A stretch of 64,000 nucleotides of DNA from Oscillospiraceae bacterium (GTDB lineage: Bacteria; Bacillota; Clostridia; Oscillospirales; CAG-272): positions 1 to 64,000 of the forward strand of contig SVTJ01000012.1 of the NCBI GenBank assembly GCA_015063845.1, read 5' to 3'. The position numbers were made by a program, and so were the translations under genes. This document shows, piece by piece, positions 6,953-14,160 of this stretch. Below the pieces are notes generated by a model. The model worked only from the letters and a program-made list of their open reading frames with translations, was not told the DNA's origin and searched no databases. How positions within the stretch are numbered: position 1 is the first letter of the stretch; each line of letters starts with the position of its first letter.

Positions 6953-6998
6953 TATTTGATCATTATTTTGATAAAAGCATAAAAACGCGCAAGAGTTT

Positions 6999-7026
6999 GC
7001 CCGTGTGTCCAAGTGGACACACGGGC
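6999..7026 (-). terminator. Hairpin closing the phage-head cassette
   Basis: Perfect 12-bp stem (gcccgtgtgtcc / ggacacacgggc) with a 4-base loop, 7 bases beyond the stop of the last cassette gene. The T run is weak directly after the stem on the minus strand (aaactc, then gttttt), so termination is probable but not certain. Confidence 0.65.
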
Positions 7027-7033
7027 GTTTTGC

Positions 7034-7426
7034 TCAGTCGTAGAAATATCGGTCTTGTATGCTCTCGCAAACGGCGGGAACACAACGTCCGATAGACGAC
7101 ATCGCATCGCAGTATCTGTCATAGAGCCTGTCCGACATCTCGGGGAAATCGTCGATTATCAGCATAGCCGCAAGATAAAGAGAAGCGGCACTTGAAAAGC
7201 GGTCGAGCAGAGGGAAGTCGTTTTCAAGCGGGATAAACACCGCGTTGAAGTCATCGGACTCACGCTCGTCAAGCGCGATACGCAACGAAGCGTCGGTGTC
7301 GCGAGCCTCGGTGCAGAAAGCTGCCAGAAGATAGGGAGCTCTCTCTTCGTAATCCTCGTTGTCGCCGTCCACGGAGCTCTCAGCGAGCATTGCTAATGCA
7401 CTTATGTATATGTCTCTATTGGTCAT
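7034..7426 (-). CDS. Small protein at head-completion position (adaptor-like)
   Basis: 130 residues, acidic and mostly helical in character. I do not recognise a family from sequence. The start codon lies 1 base after the coat gene stop, so translation is probably coupled. In P22-like and HK97-like genomes the gene after the coat protein usually encodes the head-tail connector or adaptor (P22 gp4, HK97 gp6). Length and helical content fit that role, but the assignment rests on position only. It is the last gene of the cassette; a hairpin follows directly instead of tail genes. Confidence 0.6.
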   Translation of the reverse strand: MTNRDIYISALAMLAESSVDGDNEDYEERAPYLLAAFCTEARDTDASLRIALDERESDDFNAVFIPLENDFPLLDRFSSAASLYLAAMLIIDDFPEMSDRLYDRYCDAMSSIGRCVPAVCESIQDRYFYD

Positions 7427-7427
7427 A

Positions 7428-8267
7428 TCAGTTTGCTACCGAGTGAGTTACTTCTATGCAGACCATCTCCTTAGGATATATCACCTTTGCTCCAAAGAGG
7501 TGAAGTCCCTTAACGGCATCGGCAAATCTCTTTTCGGGACGGTAAGCCTCTATCTCGGAAAGCTGCTCTGCGAAAGCGATGGAGCGCTTGGTACGTACGA
7601 GACAGTTGTGAAGGATATCGTCTGTTTCCTGGAAGGATTCAACGTTGTTTGATACAAACACCTTCGCGCCGAAGAGTGTGCCGAACTGACCGTTTTCAAG
7701 TACAGAATTGTTGCTGGATGTGAATTCGATCTTTGCTCTGAGAAGAATAGATGCTACGTAGGGGGTCAACTCGATAACCACGTCGGAGGGATCAGTGACG
7801 CCTGCCTCGTAAAGCTTCTGCATAGCGGTAATAAAGGTATCCAAAAGCACCTCGGGAGTGGGCTCATTGAGGCAGATCCTTGTTTCGGTGTCCTTGTGAA
7901 GTGAATAGATAAATCTATCAGCCTGATTTGCAAGAGCGGCTGCTGCTGTGCTCATAGCAGCTTCCATAAGCTTAGGCGAAGCCTGCGCGAGGTCTATGTC
8001 GTCTATCTGGAAGTTGAAGCATACAGCTTGGTCGATCGGAAATTCGATCACTGTGTCTGTGAGGACCTGAGGTGCACTAAGATCGGTGTCCTTGTGATAG
8101 TCATTGAGTCCTACGTTTTCGATTCCGCAGATCTTTACGACAGAGCCCATCTCCTTTATATCTCCTTCGAAGGAGCGGTTACAGTTTGATGCTGCGACGT
8201 ACTTTTCGTTGAGTTTTGCATAGAGTGTCTCACTCCATACTGTAGGTATAAAATTTGTAATTGCCAT
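7428..8267 (-). CDS. Phage major capsid (coat) protein, P22 coat family
   Basis: 279 residues. The N-terminus (MAITNFIPTVWSETL, then NCNRSFEGDIKEMG and VKICGI) and the FPIDQAVCFNFQIDDIDLAQA segment match the pattern of P22-type coat proteins with an HK97 fold, found in many podo- and siphophages of Firmicutes and Actinobacteria. No delta-domain protease is encoded nearby, which fits a scaffold-dependent, non-cleaved coat. RBS AAAGGA precedes the ATG. The frame is intact from start to stop, with no sign of decay. Confidence 0.85.
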   Translation of the reverse strand: MAITNFIPTVWSETLYAKLNEKYVAASNCNRSFEGDIKEMGSVVKICGIENVGLNDYHKDTDLSAPQVLTDTVIEFPIDQAVCFNFQIDDIDLAQASPKLMEAAMSTAAAALANQADRFIYSLHKDTETRICLNEPTPEVLLDTFITAMQKLYEAGVTDPSDVVIELTPYVASILLRAKIEFTSSNNSVLENGQFGTLFGAKVFVSNNVESFQETDDILHNCLVRTKRSIAFAEQLSEIEAYRPEKRFADAVKGLHLFGAKVIYPKEMVCIEVTHSVAN

Positions 8268-8309
8268 AATTTTTTGATCCTTTCTTTTTTAAAAATTTTT
8301 GTGTTTATC

Positions 8310-8864
8310 TCAGTTCCATTTTTTCATGGAGCTTATGATCTTTTTGTAGTTTGCTCTTACCTCGTCCTGAGACATTGAGCGCACCTCATCGGGTGTGAAG
8401 AATTCGGAGGGGGTGTTTGTTCCTGCCTTGCCTGCCGAGAGAGAGGCGTTCTTTTGGTTGACTGCTTTTACGCGCTCTGCCTGGAGCTGAAGCTTGCGCT
8501 GATATATAGCGTAAGAGGCGGCAAGCGAGTTGCCTTTTTTTACGTCCTCCCAAACCTCATCGGGGAGTGTTTCCACCGCGGTCTCGGGGAAAAGGGAATA
8601 GAAGTCTCCGAGCTGTGCGGATATCCTTTCCGCCTCGGCTTGCTTTTGCGCGAGCAGAGCGGTCAGCTCGCTGACCTGCTCTCTGAGCGTTTCAAGCTCG
8701 TTTGCAACAGCGTCCTCGACGGTCTCTGCCTCAGTGTCGCATTGCTCTTCAGTGTCGCATTGCTCGTCATCGACTGCCGTGACTTTTGTATCGTTTTCCG
8801 TCTCTGCGAGCACCTCGCAGGGCTCATCCGCAATGGACGCGGCAATGATAGTATCGTTATTCAT
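8310..8864 (-). CDS. Phage scaffolding-like protein
   Basis: 184 residues. An acidic N-terminus (about 1-50) carries the short tandem repeat EEQCDTE. A predicted coiled coil follows (about 52-85). Next is a Ser/Gly/Thr-rich linker, then EFFTPDEVRSMSQDEVRANY and a basic C-terminal helix ending SMKKWN. An acidic head, coiled coil and basic coat-binding tail are the usual plan of scaffolding proteins, and the position between portal and coat matches P22 gene 8. The ATG overlaps the portal stop by 8 bases and has a GGAGG RBS. Confidence 0.75.
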   Translation of the reverse strand: MNNDTIIAASIADEPCEVLAETENDTKVTAVDDEQCDTEEQCDTEAETVEDAVANELETLREQVSELTALLAQKQAEAERISAQLGDFYSLFPETAVETLPDEVWEDVKKGNSLAASYAIYQRKLQLQAERVKAVNQKNASLSAGKAGTNTPSEFFTPDEVRSMSQDEVRANYKKIISSMKKWN

Positions 8865-10422
8865 ATGTATCCTCCGTTGTTAAGTTATTTTCTCTTTTTT
8901 CAAGTACCATGATAAGCGCGTTCCTGTCCATAAGAAGTCCTGCGGGAAGTCTGCGGACGTATTCGGACGGAGTTATGTATCCGCCGTCGAGCAGCTTGTC
9001 AAGCATATTTTGCGCGGCAGCCGCGCTGTATCTCGTGACCTCTGCGATATCAACTCTGGCGCATATAGCTGCCTTTCTGATAAGCTGAGTGTCAACGTAT
9101 TTTGCGACCGTCTCCTTTCCGTTGGTGCAGGGAAGAAGCCTGTCGGAAGGATAGTAAGCGGCTGTCATATCCGCCCAAATATTCGCGAGCTCCTCAATGC
9201 ACCCATAGTAGGCGCGGCGCACGTTGTCAAGCGAGATCCTTGATGTTTCCTGAAGCGCGAGTATCGCGCTGGTGTTTTTAGCTTCCATATTTCCGAGTGC
9301 CGATTCGGTAGCGCCCATAAGCTCCTTTGTAAGCGTGACCGACTTTTCGATGAGGTCCATAAATCCGCTCTGCATCTCGCCCGTTCCGACTACCGACACA
9401 GCATCCGAGATATTTCCGCCGCCCATTGCGGCAATAGCCTCTCCGACCTCGTTTGACCACTCGGGTATCTTGGATTTATCGTAAATGACCTTTGAAAAAG
9501 CGGTGTCGGTCATATGCTTCATCGCCATTGCGTAGGCTCTGTTGATGAACTTCTGATTGGGTATCATAGCGCCTACGGCGGACGTGCCGTGGAAGCTGTT
9601 TTTTGTGGGTGTCCAGTTAAAGAATGCTATGGGGTAGAGACTGCAATCCGTCTTTGCTCTGCGTATAACACAGCTCTTTACGGATTTTTCAAAGCATACC
9701 TTTCCTTTTTCCTTCCAGAATTTGATTATAAAGGTGGTCTTTGCCTCGTCGTCGCCCTCAAGCTCGTATTCTGCTTGCTTGCCCGACTGATAGCAGGCGT
9801 CATTGTCTGCGATTATCTTTTTTAAATCGTCATCCGAAACACCGCTCAGGTGTGCTTCCTCACGCAGAGAAGCGACAGATGCGCGCCCTGAGAGTATAAC
9901 GTATTCCTGCGACTGTATATCGGGCTTGTTTACGTCGGCGGGGAATATATTGATAGAATCAATGATCTCTGTAACGATATCGCCCGCGTAGTCCTGAGGA
10001 CTTTTCAGCTCGGTATTCCAATAGCAATAGACAGCGCCGTCACCGCTTATTGCGGCATCGGTGAGCAGGGAGAATACCTTTGTGTCCATATTTGACTGCT
10101 CCCAACGGTATGCCGCGTTTTCGGTAAGCGCGGAAAGAGTTGTGTTTATCTGCTTTTGAGCGTATTCGTCCGCAAAGGGAAGCTCCTCGTCGGTAAAGCG
10201 GATAGAGAGATCGGCTGACGCCACCGAGCATATCAGATAGTCGGCGACGCGCTTTACAATGTTGAATACGGGTCTTGGCAGATCCTTGCCCTCACCGTTT
10301 GCCCATTGCTCTCCACGATAGAATGCCTCGTTGCGTCTGCACGTCTCATAAAGACCTATTCTGCGCTTATACTCCTTGCCCGCCTCATACTGTTGCCAGG
10401 CCTTGTGTGTATATTCGTTCAT
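8857..10422 (-). CDS. Phage portal protein
   Basis: 521 residues, the dodecameric ring through which TerL pumps DNA. The N-terminus has the portal pattern RRNEAFYRGEQW and PVFNIVKRVADYLI. The middle carries FFNWTPTKNSFHGTSAVGAM, then IPNQKFINRAYAM, and the helical stem near ESALGNMEAKNTSAILALQ. This resembles P22-like and related Firmicutes portals. The gene is intact. RBS AAAGGA lies 6 bases before the ATG. It sits 22 bases after the gp10-like gene and overlaps the scaffold gene by 8 bases. Confidence 0.85.
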   Translation of the reverse strand: MNEYTHKAWQQYEAGKEYKRRIGLYETCRRNEAFYRGEQWANGEGKDLPRPVFNIVKRVADYLICSVASADLSIRFTDEELPFADEYAQKQINTTLSALTENAAYRWEQSNMDTKVFSLLTDAAISGDGAVYCYWNTELKSPQDYAGDIVTEIIDSINIFPADVNKPDIQSQEYVILSGRASVASLREEAHLSGVSDDDLKKIIADNDACYQSGKQAEYELEGDDEAKTTFIIKFWKEKGKVCFEKSVKSCVIRRAKTDCSLYPIAFFNWTPTKNSFHGTSAVGAMIPNQKFINRAYAMAMKHMTDTAFSKVIYDKSKIPEWSNEVGEAIAAMGGGNISDAVSVVGTGEMQSGFMDLIEKSVTLTKELMGATESALGNMEAKNTSAILALQETSRISLDNVRRAYYGCIEELANIWADMTAAYYPSDRLLPCTNGKETVAKYVDTQLIRKAAICARVDIAEVTRYSAAAAQNMLDKLLDGGYITPSEYVRRLPAGLLMDRNALIMVLEKRENNLTTEDTYE

Positions 10423-10444
10423 TTTATTTCCTTTCTTTTATTTA

Positions 10445-12166
10445 TTACCGCGTGTTGATACACAGCGAGTATATTCTTTGCGTTGATCGCCCTGTTGCAC
10501 GAAGAGCAAAACGGGCGGTTTTAAATCTTTTTGCGGACACTCTCTTTTTGACGGTGCTGTACTTTGTAAGCTGCGTGAGCGAGGTCGTGCATTCGGGCGC
10601 GTCTTTTCCGTCAAAGTATAACTCAAGCGAGATGCCCGTGCCGAAGTATCCTGCCGATACAGAGCGCATATGCTTGAAGCTGTCCGTCCCGAAATCGAGA
10701 GTGTTGCTGTAAAACGCGGCGTTTATCTCTTTCTCTGCCACGCCCTTATCGACCGTGCAGCTCTTATCAAACACAAATATTTGAGTGCCTTTTATAAATC
10801 CGACGTCACTTCCGCAGTCGATAAATCTATCTGCCGAGATACCTTCGAATACCGTCCAGCACTTGGAGCTCGTGTTGTAGACGAGCACCTTGTTCTCAAG
10901 CTTTGGCGAGCCGAAAAGTATCTCTCCCTTTACCCCGTCGTGAAATACGAACGCGGTGGTGAAGAAGTCGGCTGGGAGCAGTCCGTTTATTCCGTCTGAG
11001 ATACTGTACGCGTTGCATTCGTCAAGCTCGTCTGTGTTGCTTGTCCATCGGTATATCGAATTTAAACCGACAGAGCAGGGCTGATTGCCAACTGTCGTTG
11101 CGGCGTCCTCAGAGGCGACACCGATAGCTGAATTTATTCTCATAAGCGGAAACTCCTCGATACCGCAAGCGGAGCTGTCCGCCATCCAAGCACCGCCCTC
11201 GGTGAATATGAGCAGACGGTCGTAATGTCTGCTTACCGCGCTTATTGGATATCTTCCGTCACCCACCGTAAACTCGTGCCCGAAAGGAAAGTAGAGCTCG
11301 TCGCTCGAGCCAAAGGTCTTGCGTGAAGCGTAGAGATCGGCTATCGAAACGTACGCGGCGTTGTACATGACCGTCTTGTCGTTACCGCCCCAGAGGAACG
11401 GTCGGCTGTTTGTTATCGCGCCGAACACCATAGCTTTTTTGCAAGAAAGAAGCTCGGCGGTGAAGCTTGTGTCCTTTTGATAGCGATAGCATAGCTCTAC
11501 GTGGTCGCCTGCCTTTAGCTCTGTAAGAAATACGGTTCTTGGCACGATCGAGAGAGAATATCTATCCTCATCTATCTTTACTCCGTTTACGAATATGCGG
11601 TCGATACTGACAATGTTTTCATCTGTTTTGAGATAAGCGCTTCCGTCCGTCTTTATAGCGTAGGTTATTCTCGCTCTGTCGTTGAGCAGATTTGGACTTT
11701 GATAGATCTCGCCAACGGTGTTTACGGGCCAATCCTTTCCAACCAGCGGAATATAGCCGTAGGGGGCCGTGATGCCGCCGCTACCGATGATATATATGCT
11801 CTTACCGTCGATGAGATACAGCTTTGAGCGATAATAAAAGAATGTGGCGTCGCCGCTGTCGGTGTCGATTTCGCCGACGCTTGCGGACAGCTCGGTCTGG
11901 AAGTTGAGCAGCATAACGGCTTTGCCGATAAGCGCGTAGCCCTTGAAAACACCGTCAAGCTTTCCCGTCCAAACGGCTCTTATGGGGGCATCGAAGGTGA
12001 AAACGGTACGGTATCCGTATCTCTTTTCCAATGAGCCGTCGGGAGCTATACGGAAATTTGATATGTAAGAGCAGCCGTGCTCACTCGTCTTGTCCATACG
12101 CGTGTCGATCCCCTCAAAGCTATCAAACGCCAGCTCGTATTTTTGTTTTGTTGATATTTTATTCAC
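10445..12166 (-). CDS. P22 gp10-like DNA-stabilisation / head-plug protein
   Basis: 573 residues. The N-terminus (FEGIDTRMD, NFRIAPDGSLEKRYGYR) and repeated beta-strand blocks (KLYLIDGKSIYII, RLLIFTEGGAWM, GLNSIYRWT) resemble propeller-like tail-hub proteins of the P22 gp10 group, which plug the portal after packaging. Placement between terminase and portal differs from P22, where gp10 follows gp4. The first codon in frame is GTG (plus 12164-12166) after AAGAAATGAG, a weak RBS; a later start is possible. No tail needle, spike or tape-measure gene follows. The functional call is moderately sure. Confidence 0.65.
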   Translation of the reverse strand: MNKISTKQKYELAFDSFEGIDTRMDKTSEHGCSYISNFRIAPDGSLEKRYGYRTVFTFDAPIRAVWTGKLDGVFKGYALIGKAVMLLNFQTELSASVGEIDTDSGDATFFYYRSKLYLIDGKSIYIIGSGGITAPYGYIPLVGKDWPVNTVGEIYQSPNLLNDRARITYAIKTDGSAYLKTDENIVSIDRIFVNGVKIDEDRYSLSIVPRTVFLTELKAGDHVELCYRYQKDTSFTAELLSCKKAMVFGAITNSRPFLWGGNDKTVMYNAAYVSIADLYASRKTFGSSDELYFPFGHEFTVGDGRYPISAVSRHYDRLLIFTEGGAWMADSSACGIEEFPLMRINSAIGVASEDAATTVGNQPCSVGLNSIYRWTSNTDELDECNAYSISDGINGLLPADFFTTAFVFHDGVKGEILFGSPKLENKVLVYNTSSKCWTVFEGISADRFIDCGSDVGFIKGTQIFVFDKSCTVDKGVAEKEINAAFYSNTLDFGTDSFKHMRSVSAGYFGTGISLELYFDGKDAPECTTSLTQLTKYSTVKKRVSAKRFKTARFALRATGRSTQRIYSLCINTR

Positions 12167-12195
12167 CTCATTTCTTGGCTTATTGTCACAGAAGC

Positions 12196-13542
12196 TCAGT
12201 CGAAAAATCCGACCTTTTTTCTTGGGAAGATAAAGTCGTTACGTATTGTGGGCACGGGCGGCTCACAACGACACATCACGGCGTATCTGAGTGCCTCGGG
12301 AGCGTGAGTTACGGAGTGCGGCTCGCAAGAGGCGTCCTCAGGACGGACCTCGTCGCAAAGCAGGGCGGGCAAGCACTTGATAAGCTCTGTGCAGCTCTTG
12401 CTGATGCGAAGCTTTGGTGTACCCTCGGATACGTTGAGATATTCGCGAAGAACTCTCCATCCGGGTATCCTTCTGTTGTCCGCCGCTATCATAGGCGGCA
12501 TACCTCTGACCCCTTGCATTATCTCAAAGCCGCTACGTCCGCTGTCCTGACGTCTGTTCCATAGATCGGGGGAACAGACCGCAAACTCGGCATTCTCCCC
12601 CTCGCAAAGCGCGGCGACCTGCTGTGCGGCTTCCCTCAGCGTGAGATTGGGTATACACCTTTCTTTTGCGACGTACATATATCCGTCGACGTCGATGGCT
12701 ATGAGCAGAGCGGCAAGCATATCGAAGCCGTAGTCAAGCGCAACAAACCGCTTTGTGAATTTTGGGATAACGTTTGGGTTACATACGTGAGCGGCGGCAT
12801 CGAATTCGGGAAAAAACTGTCCCTCGAATACGTCCCATTTGCCGTACAGCCAGGCATCACGCAAACGCTCGGGAAGAGAGAAGAGAGAGCCGACGTATTC
12901 GGGATCGTTTGCGGTAAGCTCGGAATTGTCGAATACGAGCGCTTGAACAAATCCGTAATCGTCGGGATCCTCCCCGTCGCGGAACTGTCTGTCGATAAAA
13001 AGTCGCTTCACCCATGCGTGACCTATGCCACCGGGATTGCAGGTAAGATACATACGCCTCGGAAAGGGAGACGTTCCTCTGAGACACGCCTTGAATATCG
13101 AAAAGCGGTATTCGCTCAGCTGAGTTGCCTCGTCGATGGCTATTACGTCGTATTCCTGACCCTGATAGCGAAGCGCATCCTTGTCGGTCGCGCAAAAGCC
13201 GAGATAAATGCAGCTGCCGTTAAAGAACTTGAGAGCCTTTTCGGAGTCCGAGTAGGTGAGCAGACCCTTGTACTCACGGAGAAAGGGGATAACGTGATTG
13301 GACTTGAGCTCGGGAAGAGTGCGTCTGACCAAAAGACACCTCAGCCCCTCGTAGCGTAAGCACATAGCGGTCAGCTTTCGCCTGAGTGCCCAGGATTTTC
13401 CGCCTCCTCTCGCTCCGCCGTACGCAGTAAAGCGCGTACGCATATCAAAGAATTGCTGCTGCTTGGGATTGGGCTTTCCCTTGATCTTGAGCTGCGGCTC
13501 GGAGCGTGAGCTATTCTCCGTCCGCGAAAATGTCGTGCTCAA
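12196..13542 (-). CDS. Terminase large subunit (packaging ATPase/nuclease)
   Basis: 448 residues. The ATPase half has Walker A GGARGGGKS (about 39-47), Walker B VIAIDEATQ and the coupling motif TCNPGG. The nuclease half has LDYGFD and SPDLW as the first two acids. The third site reads HAPEALRY, where many relatives have DALRY; Glu may still bind metal. Translation starts at TTG (plus 13540-13542), inside the end of the small subunit gene. It is preceded by AAAGGAGGTGA, complementary to the 16S 3' end over 11 bases. Full-length and undamaged. Confidence 0.92.
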   Translation of the reverse strand: MSTTFSRTENSSRSEPQLKIKGKPNPKQQQFFDMRTRFTAYGGARGGGKSWALRRKLTAMCLRYEGLRCLLVRRTLPELKSNHVIPFLREYKGLLTYSDSEKALKFFNGSCIYLGFCATDKDALRYQGQEYDVIAIDEATQLSEYRFSIFKACLRGTSPFPRRMYLTCNPGGIGHAWVKRLFIDRQFRDGEDPDDYGFVQALVFDNSELTANDPEYVGSLFSLPERLRDAWLYGKWDVFEGQFFPEFDAAAHVCNPNVIPKFTKRFVALDYGFDMLAALLIAIDVDGYMYVAKERCIPNLTLREAAQQVAALCEGENAEFAVCSPDLWNRRQDSGRSGFEIMQGVRGMPPMIAADNRRIPGWRVLREYLNVSEGTPKLRISKSCTELIKCLPALLCDEVRPEDASCEPHSVTHAPEALRYAVMCRCEPPVPTIRNDFIFPRKKVGFFD

Positions 13543-13963
13543 AGCAGTATCTCACCTCCTTTGCGCTGTCTGTGGGCTCTTTGTCAAGCGTGTAGTCTAT
13601 CCGCTTTTTGAGATAGGCGGACAGCAGAGTGGGGGAGACCTCAGAATTTAGAGCCTCGTCCTCGAATACCGCTAAAAGCTTGTCGTATTCATCGGGGAAA
13701 TCCTTACAAAGCGCGGCAAGGTCGGAAAGACCGGTGCCGACGTATCTGCACAGCCCCGCAAGATTGGCAAATCGGTTTTTTTGCTTTGCCCGTTGCTTTT
13801 GAGCCTCATCCGAAAGCCCCGAGGCAGACGAATGACAAAAGCTGATGTACTCGTCAACGACGTATTCAAGAAGCCCGTTCTTGCAAAGCTCGGACATCAC
13901 ACCGTGAGCGTTGCCGTTGGTGACGCTTGTTTTGCTTTTCTTTTTCCTTTGAAACAGTAGCAT
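13511..13963 (-). CDS. Probable terminase small subunit
   Basis: 150 residues, first gene of the cassette. It has a basic N-terminus (FQRKKKSKTSV), a helical core and an acidic C-terminus. I see no clear HTH motif, and the call rests on its position and its 32-base overlap with TerL, as is usual for small terminases. The start is taken at MLLFQRKKK because GAGGAGGT lies 5 bases upstream; a longer reading begins at 13993 but lacks an RBS and would overlap the candidate -10 box. Confidence 0.6.
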   Translation of the reverse strand: MLLFQRKKKSKTSVTNGNAHGVMSELCKNGLLEYVVDEYISFCHSSASGLSDEAQKQRAKQKNRFANLAGLCRYVGTGLSDLAALCKDFPDEYDKLLAVFEDEALNSEVSPTLLSAYLKKRIDYTLDKEPTDSAKEVRYCFEHDIFADGE

Positions 13964-13993
13964 TTTTACCTCCTCTTGTTCTGTGACACCCAT

Positions 13994-13999
13994 ATTATA
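13994..13999 (-). promoter_or_regulatory. Candidate -10 box of the phage-head operon
   Basis: Minus-strand TATAAT (plus 13994-13999), about 20 bases before the RBS of the first cassette gene. No good -35 box lies 16-18 bases upstream; TTGGCA is 13 bases away. The promoter may be weak, activator-dependent or read by another sigma factor. Confidence 0.45.
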
Positions 14000-14160
14000 C
14001 GGCAGAAGCGAGTGCCAAACAGTGGTTCAAAGTGACGCTTTGTGCCTGTTTTTTAAGTTTTTTTCAAAAAAATTTCTGGACAGTGGGGGAGAGTGGCAAA
14101 AAAACGGCTGAATGTTTGTATAAAGTGTTAAATGTTGAGGTAAGTTGAAAAAATATAAAT
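14000..14160. other. Upstream region of the phage-head cassette with short repeats
   Basis: AT-rich and gene-free. It contains the heptamers acagtgg (14019-14025 and 14080-14086) and agagtgg (14090-14096), and a small palindrome caaagTGACGctttg near 14027-14041. These could be a TerS recognition (pac) site or a regulator site; nothing in the sequence decides which. Confidence 0.35.

Follow-up and report, generated by a model that had tools for sequence, protein, structure and literature searches.

The window analyzed here, the 64,000-nucleotide stretch SVTJ01000012.1 positions 1 to 64,000 of Oscillospiraceae bacterium GCA_015063845.1 (CAG-272; own genome, G000), carries a seven-gene cassette of phage head and DNA-packaging genes that is probably a reduced, domesticated gene transfer agent (GTA)-like DNA-packaging operon, mostly inherited with the host lineage. 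This reading is preferred because the seven-gene unit recurs, clusters by genus, shows low ratios of nonsynonymous to synonymous substitutions (dN/dS) and has a conserved promoter. Together with the trees of the large terminase TerL, these results support the view of the first-pass annotation that the cassette is a domesticated GTA-like or packaging body and not a decaying prophage. The conserved four-repeat promoter of the operon is new here. In the labels below, G stands for a genome, L for a fetched locus or contig stretch, f for a family and g for a genus.

All seven open reading frames (ORFs) of the cassette are open and share one direction behind a single promoter; on the minus strand they span 13963 to 7034 in the order TerS, TerL, gp10-like, portal, scaffold, coat, and adaptor (Table 1). 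TerS and TerL overlap by 32 nt and portal and scaffold by 8 nt, and the gaps measure 29 (TerL to gp10-like), 22 (gp10-like to portal), 42 (scaffold to coat), and 1 nt (coat to adaptor). These measurements agree with the earlier description of intact, contiguous minus-strand genes with overlaps or 1- to 42-base gaps, and the assigned families support TerL, portal, and coat. TerS probably begins at the ATG at 13963, which stands behind gaggagg and downstream of the -10 box; a longer ORF from 13993 is the unlikely start. TerL starts with TTG and the gp10-like gene with GTG. The TerS of the window alone matched GP3_package at an E value of only 0.05, and the best member of its family at 2e-7. Motifs that we take to be the Walker and nuclease motifs of TerL did not vary across the 45 sequences of the alignment, a number that counts duplicates. 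The profile of the gp10-like family matched tail tubular protein B (PDB 9k09_U, 6.1e-6), and the protein is probably a podoviral short-tail nozzle. Since it is of the tail tubular protein B type, a tail stub would be present, and the earlier claim that the locus has no tail genes was too strong; the rest of that claim stood, as no integrase, replication, lysis, or fiber genes were found at the locus. The scaffold and the adaptor are tentatively named from position and conservation with the set, and no solved relative of the adaptor was matched in the profile search against PDB. The hairpin behind the last gene is the probable transcript end, and the base composition of the cassette is unremarkable. 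The own promoters previously ascribed to the flanking GDPD and serC genes were recovered as sigma-70-like sites; such sites were no commoner in the region than in shuffles.

Table 1. Features of the cassette, its promoter and the DUF6291 gene (aa, amino acids; RBS, ribosome-binding site; MCP, major capsid protein)
Feature	Position	Strand	Size	Evidence
Operon promoter, four repeats and -10 box	13986..14051	-		Matrix score, 40.9 bits
TerS-like small terminase	13511..13963	-	~150 aa	Position, RBS, conservation; PF16677 GP3_package in 24/35 family members
TerL large terminase	12196..13542	-	448 aa	phrog_979, 6e-42
gp10-like tail nozzle (tail tubular B type)	10445..12166	-	573 aa	phrog_3287, 4.7e-8; between TerL and portal
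Portal protein	8857..10422	-	521 aa	P22_portal PF16510, 2.1e-14; phrog_156, 6e-30
Scaffold-like protein	8310..8864	-	184 aa	Position; weak family evidence; homologue in the same place in 39 seven-gene loci
Major coat protein	7428..8267	-	279 aa	phrog_267, 1.2e-39; profile of relatives vs PDB 8e16 MCP, 6e-44
Adaptor-like head-tail connector	7034..7426	-	130 aa	Position after coat, family conservation; phrog_13046, 0.0036 (weak)
Hairpin directly after the last gene	6998..7027	-		Fold z, -5.9
Phage-related DUF6291 gene	L361:1592-2002 (G000 contig C8)	-	136 aa	PF19808; promoter of the cassette's four-repeat type

The recurrence of the unit was analyzed in 53 distinct loci, defined as those with TerL, portal, and coat after removal of duplicate contigs. 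The exact seven genes in window order were found in 39 of them, the window included. Among the other 14, some are cut by contig ends and some are without a gene at the search threshold; no nozzle was found in G019, G082, G126, and L063. In L063 (14323-15573), the adaptor is lengthened to 416 aa, and the extended protein could possibly take over the role of the nozzle. Measured as medians, the distance to the next gene was 214.5 bp on the upstream side (36 loci) and 157 bp on the downstream side (31 loci), and the neighbors at the other loci were mostly non-phage. When 122 flanking proteins of these loci were compared with PHROGs (E value 1e-15), 37 families were matched; the 25 of them listed include one integrase, one DnaC-like loader, one repressor, and several unnamed families, and none is named as a tail or lysis family. 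A second, more distant coat and portal set lies in a prophage-like region of contig C28 (L266) in G180, a congener with a cassette of its own.

TerL relatives occurred in 148 of 196 genomes of the family, a count that includes distant TerLs of ~35-45% identity. The more specific coat profile detected 57 of the 196 genomes in 24 of 71 genera, four of the 57 (G016, G089, G154, and G176) having only a distant coat. Coat occurrence was clustered by genus. Eight of the 18 multi-genome genera with matches were fully occupied (g1, 5/5; g12, g29, g32, and g54, 4/4; g47, 3/3; g14 and g70, 2/2), six coat-bearing genera are represented by a single genome each, and no coat was found in the other 47 genera, including g3, g4, and g48 (0/4 each). 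The order-wide search matched 113 of 394 genomes, some very weakly, with 21/22 in f17, 11/12 in f19, 30/42 in f20, and 11/41 in f1; these denominators come from a separate genome list that was taken as the same 394-genome draw.

Inheritance was followed by comparing, for 33 genomes, a TerL tree with that of a single host marker, ValS. Seven of eight multi-genome genera formed clades in the TerL tree, and their inner order was the same as for ValS in g18, g20, g29, and g32; with ValS, g47 and g65 are themselves split. Pairwise identities of TerL and ValS were correlated (Mantel r 0.42, p 0.001; Spearman only 0.16). A clean empty site in relatives had been named beforehand as the sign of a recent or decaying prophage remnant. 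The outcome was mixed: the serC region was without the cassette in the four congeners examined, yet all four carry it elsewhere, and it is therefore not a recent arrival in the genus. Cassette neighbors are shared by G028 and G090 and by G047 and G103, and an HPr-kinase-like gene (by eye) marks another recurrent region. The lepA-hemW region (by eye) adjoins the operon in four f20 loci and lies within a few kilobases of it in two f1 g20 genomes.

In pairs of window-type cassettes, dN/dS was 0.04-0.11 for coat, 0.05-0.13 for portal, 0.07-0.15 for TerL, and 0.10-0.32 for the nozzle, which indicates purifying selection on the cassette in related pairs. The first-pass annotation had proposed to compute dN/dS for TerL, portal, and coat, and for these three the values were low (0.04-0.15); a few relatives do have TerL stops. 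The viral contig L111 was 100% identical over 4,891 bp and allowed no dN/dS to be obtained. It is highly unlikely that a recent prophage deletion or decay left the late head block by chance. Such a remnant would fit the congeners without the cassette at serC, the TerL stops in a few relatives and the prophage-like region with a related head in G180, whereas the same seven genes with the nozzle before the portal in 39 of the 53 loci, the clustering by genus, the low dN/dS in related pairs, and a dedicated conserved promoter speak against it. Truncation, neutral evolution, and sporadic occurrence, the marks of a remnant, were not found apart from the stops in a few relatives, and this explanation is largely refuted.

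Capsid-forming phage-inducible chromosomal islands (cfPICI) have their own head and packaging genes and no complete tail. A satellite or mobile element of this kind would make its own heads and take tails from a helper phage, and the cassette matches the plan, its head and packaging genes being accompanied by an incomplete tail; its different loci in congeners would also agree with mobility. Against this very unlikely explanation, no integrase, replication gene, or island regulator lies at the locus, and TerL follows the host genera. The integrase with island regulators or replication genes that marks a cfPICI was not found beside the head genes in the window, and for the other loci the 25 of 37 flanking families listed name one integrase, one DnaC-like loader, and one repressor. 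The nozzle of the cassette belongs to a short tail, and a stolen long tail is therefore unlikely. The satellite-helper option of the first-pass annotation found no support: the locus has neither an integrase nor a replication gene, and inheritance follows genera.

The operon has a promoter of its own. The consensus upstream of TerS consists of four TGRSAC repeats 10 bp apart, followed by 12 bp to the -10 box, a spacing shared by 42 of the 45 sites in the alignment, the other three having 13 bp. In the window, the repeats aGGCAC (14047-14042), CGTCAC (14037-14032), AACCAC (14027-14022), and TGGCAC (14017-14012) stand in 10-bp phase before the -10 box TATAAT (13999-13994). A consensus score of at least 19 of 24 was reached by 40 of 67 TerS upstreams, none of 201 shuffles, and three of 303 control upstreams of neighboring genes, one of the three being a DUF6291 site in L044. 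A matrix was built on 42 TerS upstreams from other genomes, with the window excluded, and used to scan 1.26 of the 1.88 Mb of the own genome; the window site ranked first (40.9 bits), followed by a second site at 31.6 bits and the next at 9.4 bits. Known promoter types were rejected as the common signal, LexA-like sites being found in 6 of 67 upstreams (0.3 expected), sigmaH-like sites in 9 (1.9), and extended -10 sites in 7 (0.5), with none shared. Judged from these sequences, the cassette has a dedicated, conserved promoter. Among viral contigs, 75 stretches (L279-L353) also carry four TGRSAC repeats spaced 10 bp apart, some of them as longer, simple TGGCAC arrays.

The second site in the own genome lies directly upstream of the DUF6291 gene (PF19808, 1.2e-27), and in L044 a site with 24/24 repeat matches also precedes a DUF6291 gene. 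No further DUF6291 was found in the fetched loci (tblastn, E value 0.01). In PHROGs, both proteins belong to phage families without assigned function and have weak links to primosomal proteins, and no paper in the literature searched names DUF6291. The promoter type common to the operon and to this unlinked gene makes DUF6291 a candidate for the unlinked regulator known from GTAs, and we infer that it may control both its own gene and the particle genes. In RcGTA of Rhodobacter, the activator GafA is encoded elsewhere, also binds its own promoter and has the lysis cassette under its control, as described in PMC6363796. The likeness lies in a phage-like structural cluster under an unlinked activator, with DUF6291 being only a candidate regulator here. 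RcGTA has a long tail, in contrast to the stub-tail nozzle of the cassette.

With respect to the other features of GTAs, the window has intact chromosomal structural and packaging genes derived from a phage, and integration, excision, and replication genes are absent from the locus. Vertical inheritance and purifying selection were also found, the exceptions being G032, the partly occupied genera, and the changing position.

Fuller relatives of the cassette were found in other families. In f20, the operon has the order TerL-portal-scaffold-coat-small-adaptor-nozzle-coiled coil-holin-small, with a TerS-like gene (by eye) before TerL in L171-L173; the holin was identified by family in L170 (1e-19) and was at the operon in four of four f20 genomes searched. 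In f17, 13 of 14 genomes have TerL on a contig other than the structural locus; in the remaining one the two are ~22 kb apart. A promoter of TGTCA-N5-TGTCA and a -10 box was found at 4/4 structural loci and in 6/14 terminase genomes of f17, with 18 matches of the motif elsewhere in 3.75 Mb; it is related to the cassette promoter and common to separate structural and terminase operons. In G278 (f17), it opens an operon of a collagen-repeat fiber-like gene (by eye), a GH25 lysin (7.6e-37), a holin-like gene (by eye), and a TerS-like gene, and then TerL. In f1-g14 (L212) and in L077, a fiber-like gene (X2) and a coiled-coil gene (X1) are kept behind the nozzle. In G370 (L258), the TerS-like gene and TerL are separated by host-like genes (by eye), an arrangement that suggests dispersed, domesticated parts.

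The closest known system is FpGTA (FpGTA I and II) of Faecalibacterium (Borodovich et al. 2026, PMC12946183). According to that paper, GTA-like systems have seldom been found outside Alphaproteobacteria; FpGTA, reported in January 2026, is the first in the human gut. Its FpGTA I is a ten-ORF operon including TerS, TerL, portal, scaffold, and coat, a second operon with fiber, holin, and endolysin is present in some strains, and the particles are described as 40 nm in size without visible tails and with ~8.5-9 kb of DNA (PMC12946183). The cassette has the operon I content of these five genes and, like FpGTA as described there, is a chromosomal TerS-TerL-portal-scaffold-coat operon without replication genes, podovirus-like and from gut Clostridia. 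Its presence in a whole genus is a further likeness to the cassette. By gene content only, the f20 operon (~ten genes, holin) resembles FpGTA I and f17 L261 resembles FpGTA II. Unlike FpGTA as published, the cassette counts seven genes and places its nozzle ahead of the portal; no linked fiber, holin, or endolysin was found for it, and it has a four-repeat promoter in common with DUF6291. An approximate Faecalibacterium 16S probe matched none of the 394 genomes. A 9.6-kb human fecal contig, MT836592.1 (L227), carries TerL-portal-scaffold-coat-nozzle, much like a GTA I operon, and by this similar gene order it is at most a possible FpGTA. The seven-gene form, its promoter, and its distribution were not described in the literature searched.

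P22-like and Bacillus Page/Pascal-like podophages have portal, coat, and nozzle of like types. The best-ranked matches in 50,697 phage records reached 40.5% for coat (Aeribacillus phage AP45), 27.3% for portal, and 23.2% for the nozzle, all below 60%. The cassette locus differs from them in having no integrase, replication, fiber, or lysis genes, and its gene order is not that of P22.

Partners for delivery and release were sought elsewhere in the genomes, where the first-pass annotation had proposed to look for tail and lysis genes. The sister-element genes X1 and X2 were found in one of 35 f1 genomes searched (30 with and 5 without the cassette), namely, in G013 at its own operon, and not in G000. 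A locus on contig C12 of G000 (94401-114400, L252) does hold a holin (PF16079), an Rv2525c-domain lysin-like gene, large Big_2 proteins, and an integrase. A second operon with fiber, holin, and endolysin was not found in G000 by the X1/X2 search, by co-occurrence, or by the promoter scan of 1.26/1.88 Mb, and neither was a linked or coregulated lysis or fiber gene, the promoter scan covering two thirds of the genome.

These results bear on two further explanations. A DNA-packaging body that never delivers its DNA, and serves public-good release, storage, or interference with phage assembly, is possible though doubtful. It would account for the fiber-like and coiled-coil genes missing in 29 of the 30 cassette genomes searched, for the lack of a linked lysis gene among those found, and for G019, G082, G126, and L063, where no nozzle was found. 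A sealed body, however, need not keep a nozzle and an adaptor, which are kept in 39 of the 53 loci with dN/dS below 1 in pairs, and the own-genome promoter scan covered only two thirds. Fiber genes evolve fast, and the cassette could belong to a prophage family specific to the lineage, with its remaining genes too divergent to be recognized or located in parts of the genome outside the search, such as the third of G000 beyond the promoter scan. FpGTA II went undetected in 7 of 12 Faecalibacterium strains in the published account (PMC12946183), which would agree with this. Such a family is nevertheless unlikely, with only two strong matrix matches in the scanned 1.26 of 1.88 Mb, no integrase at the locus, and mostly non-phage neighbors at other loci.

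Several results weigh against a domesticated GTA-like operon. Neither particles nor packaged or transferred DNA were observed. The promoter copy in the window is degenerate (18/24 by plain consensus), the scan with its matrix covers about two thirds of the genome, and by plain consensus the own-genome sites L397 and L388 equal the DUF6291 site; on the matrix, L397 scored 0.7 and L388 did not reach the top ten. In L044, the full matrix score is only 4.6 (repeat part, 41.6) because the -10 box is 13 and not 12 bp from the repeats, and 8 of 14 f17 terminase loci are without the exact TGTCA motif. Ten of the 18 multi-genome genera are only partly occupied (among them g18, 3/4; g35 and g65, 2/4; g59, 1/4), a pattern that loss, genome incompleteness, or transfer would explain. 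In the TerL tree, G032 does not group with its genus, which is also that of the window; this suggests some exchange. The position varies, the four congeners carrying the cassette at four other loci. No dN/dS pair includes the window, and dS frequently came close to 1 or exceeded it. Internal stops interrupt TerL in at least G112, G011, G078, and G035, the last with a distant TerL. As for partners, X1 and X2 were present in only one of the 30 cassette-bearing f1 genomes searched, and the L252 holin locus was rejected as an operon II of G000, its lysin-like gene being sporadic in the family (11 of 196 genomes) and present in 4 of the 57 coat carriers.

The preferred domesticated GTA-like operon most likely works like a GTA up to the filling of a particle. 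The DUF6291 protein, or a factor controlling both genes, would bind the four helically phased repeats, and the operon would be switched on in some cells. TerS and TerL would then load host DNA by way of the portal into a small P22-like shell, and adaptor and nozzle would close the shell as a stub tail. Delivery would need a fiber or receptor-binding partner, of the kind not found here, or uptake by the recipient.

More tentatively, the cassette may represent a minimal, fiber-less GTA-like class with fuller relatives in several gut Clostridia families. Such a class could have arisen by stepwise loss of fiber, ejection-like, and lysis genes, in a series from the full f17 and f20 forms through the f1-g14 intermediate to the seven-gene and six-gene forms of f1. 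It would be run by a phage-derived DUF6291 activator via the four-repeat promoter, and its particles would deliver DNA by another route or only package and release it. If the reading as a GTA-like operon holds, related systems are common across several gut Clostridia families, where they could be traced by their specific promoter, and some of them have lost parts thought to be needed for delivery. It would open to testing what switches on GTAs in Gram-positive bacteria, how small a part of a phage suffices for one, and whether packaging can be selected for without delivery.

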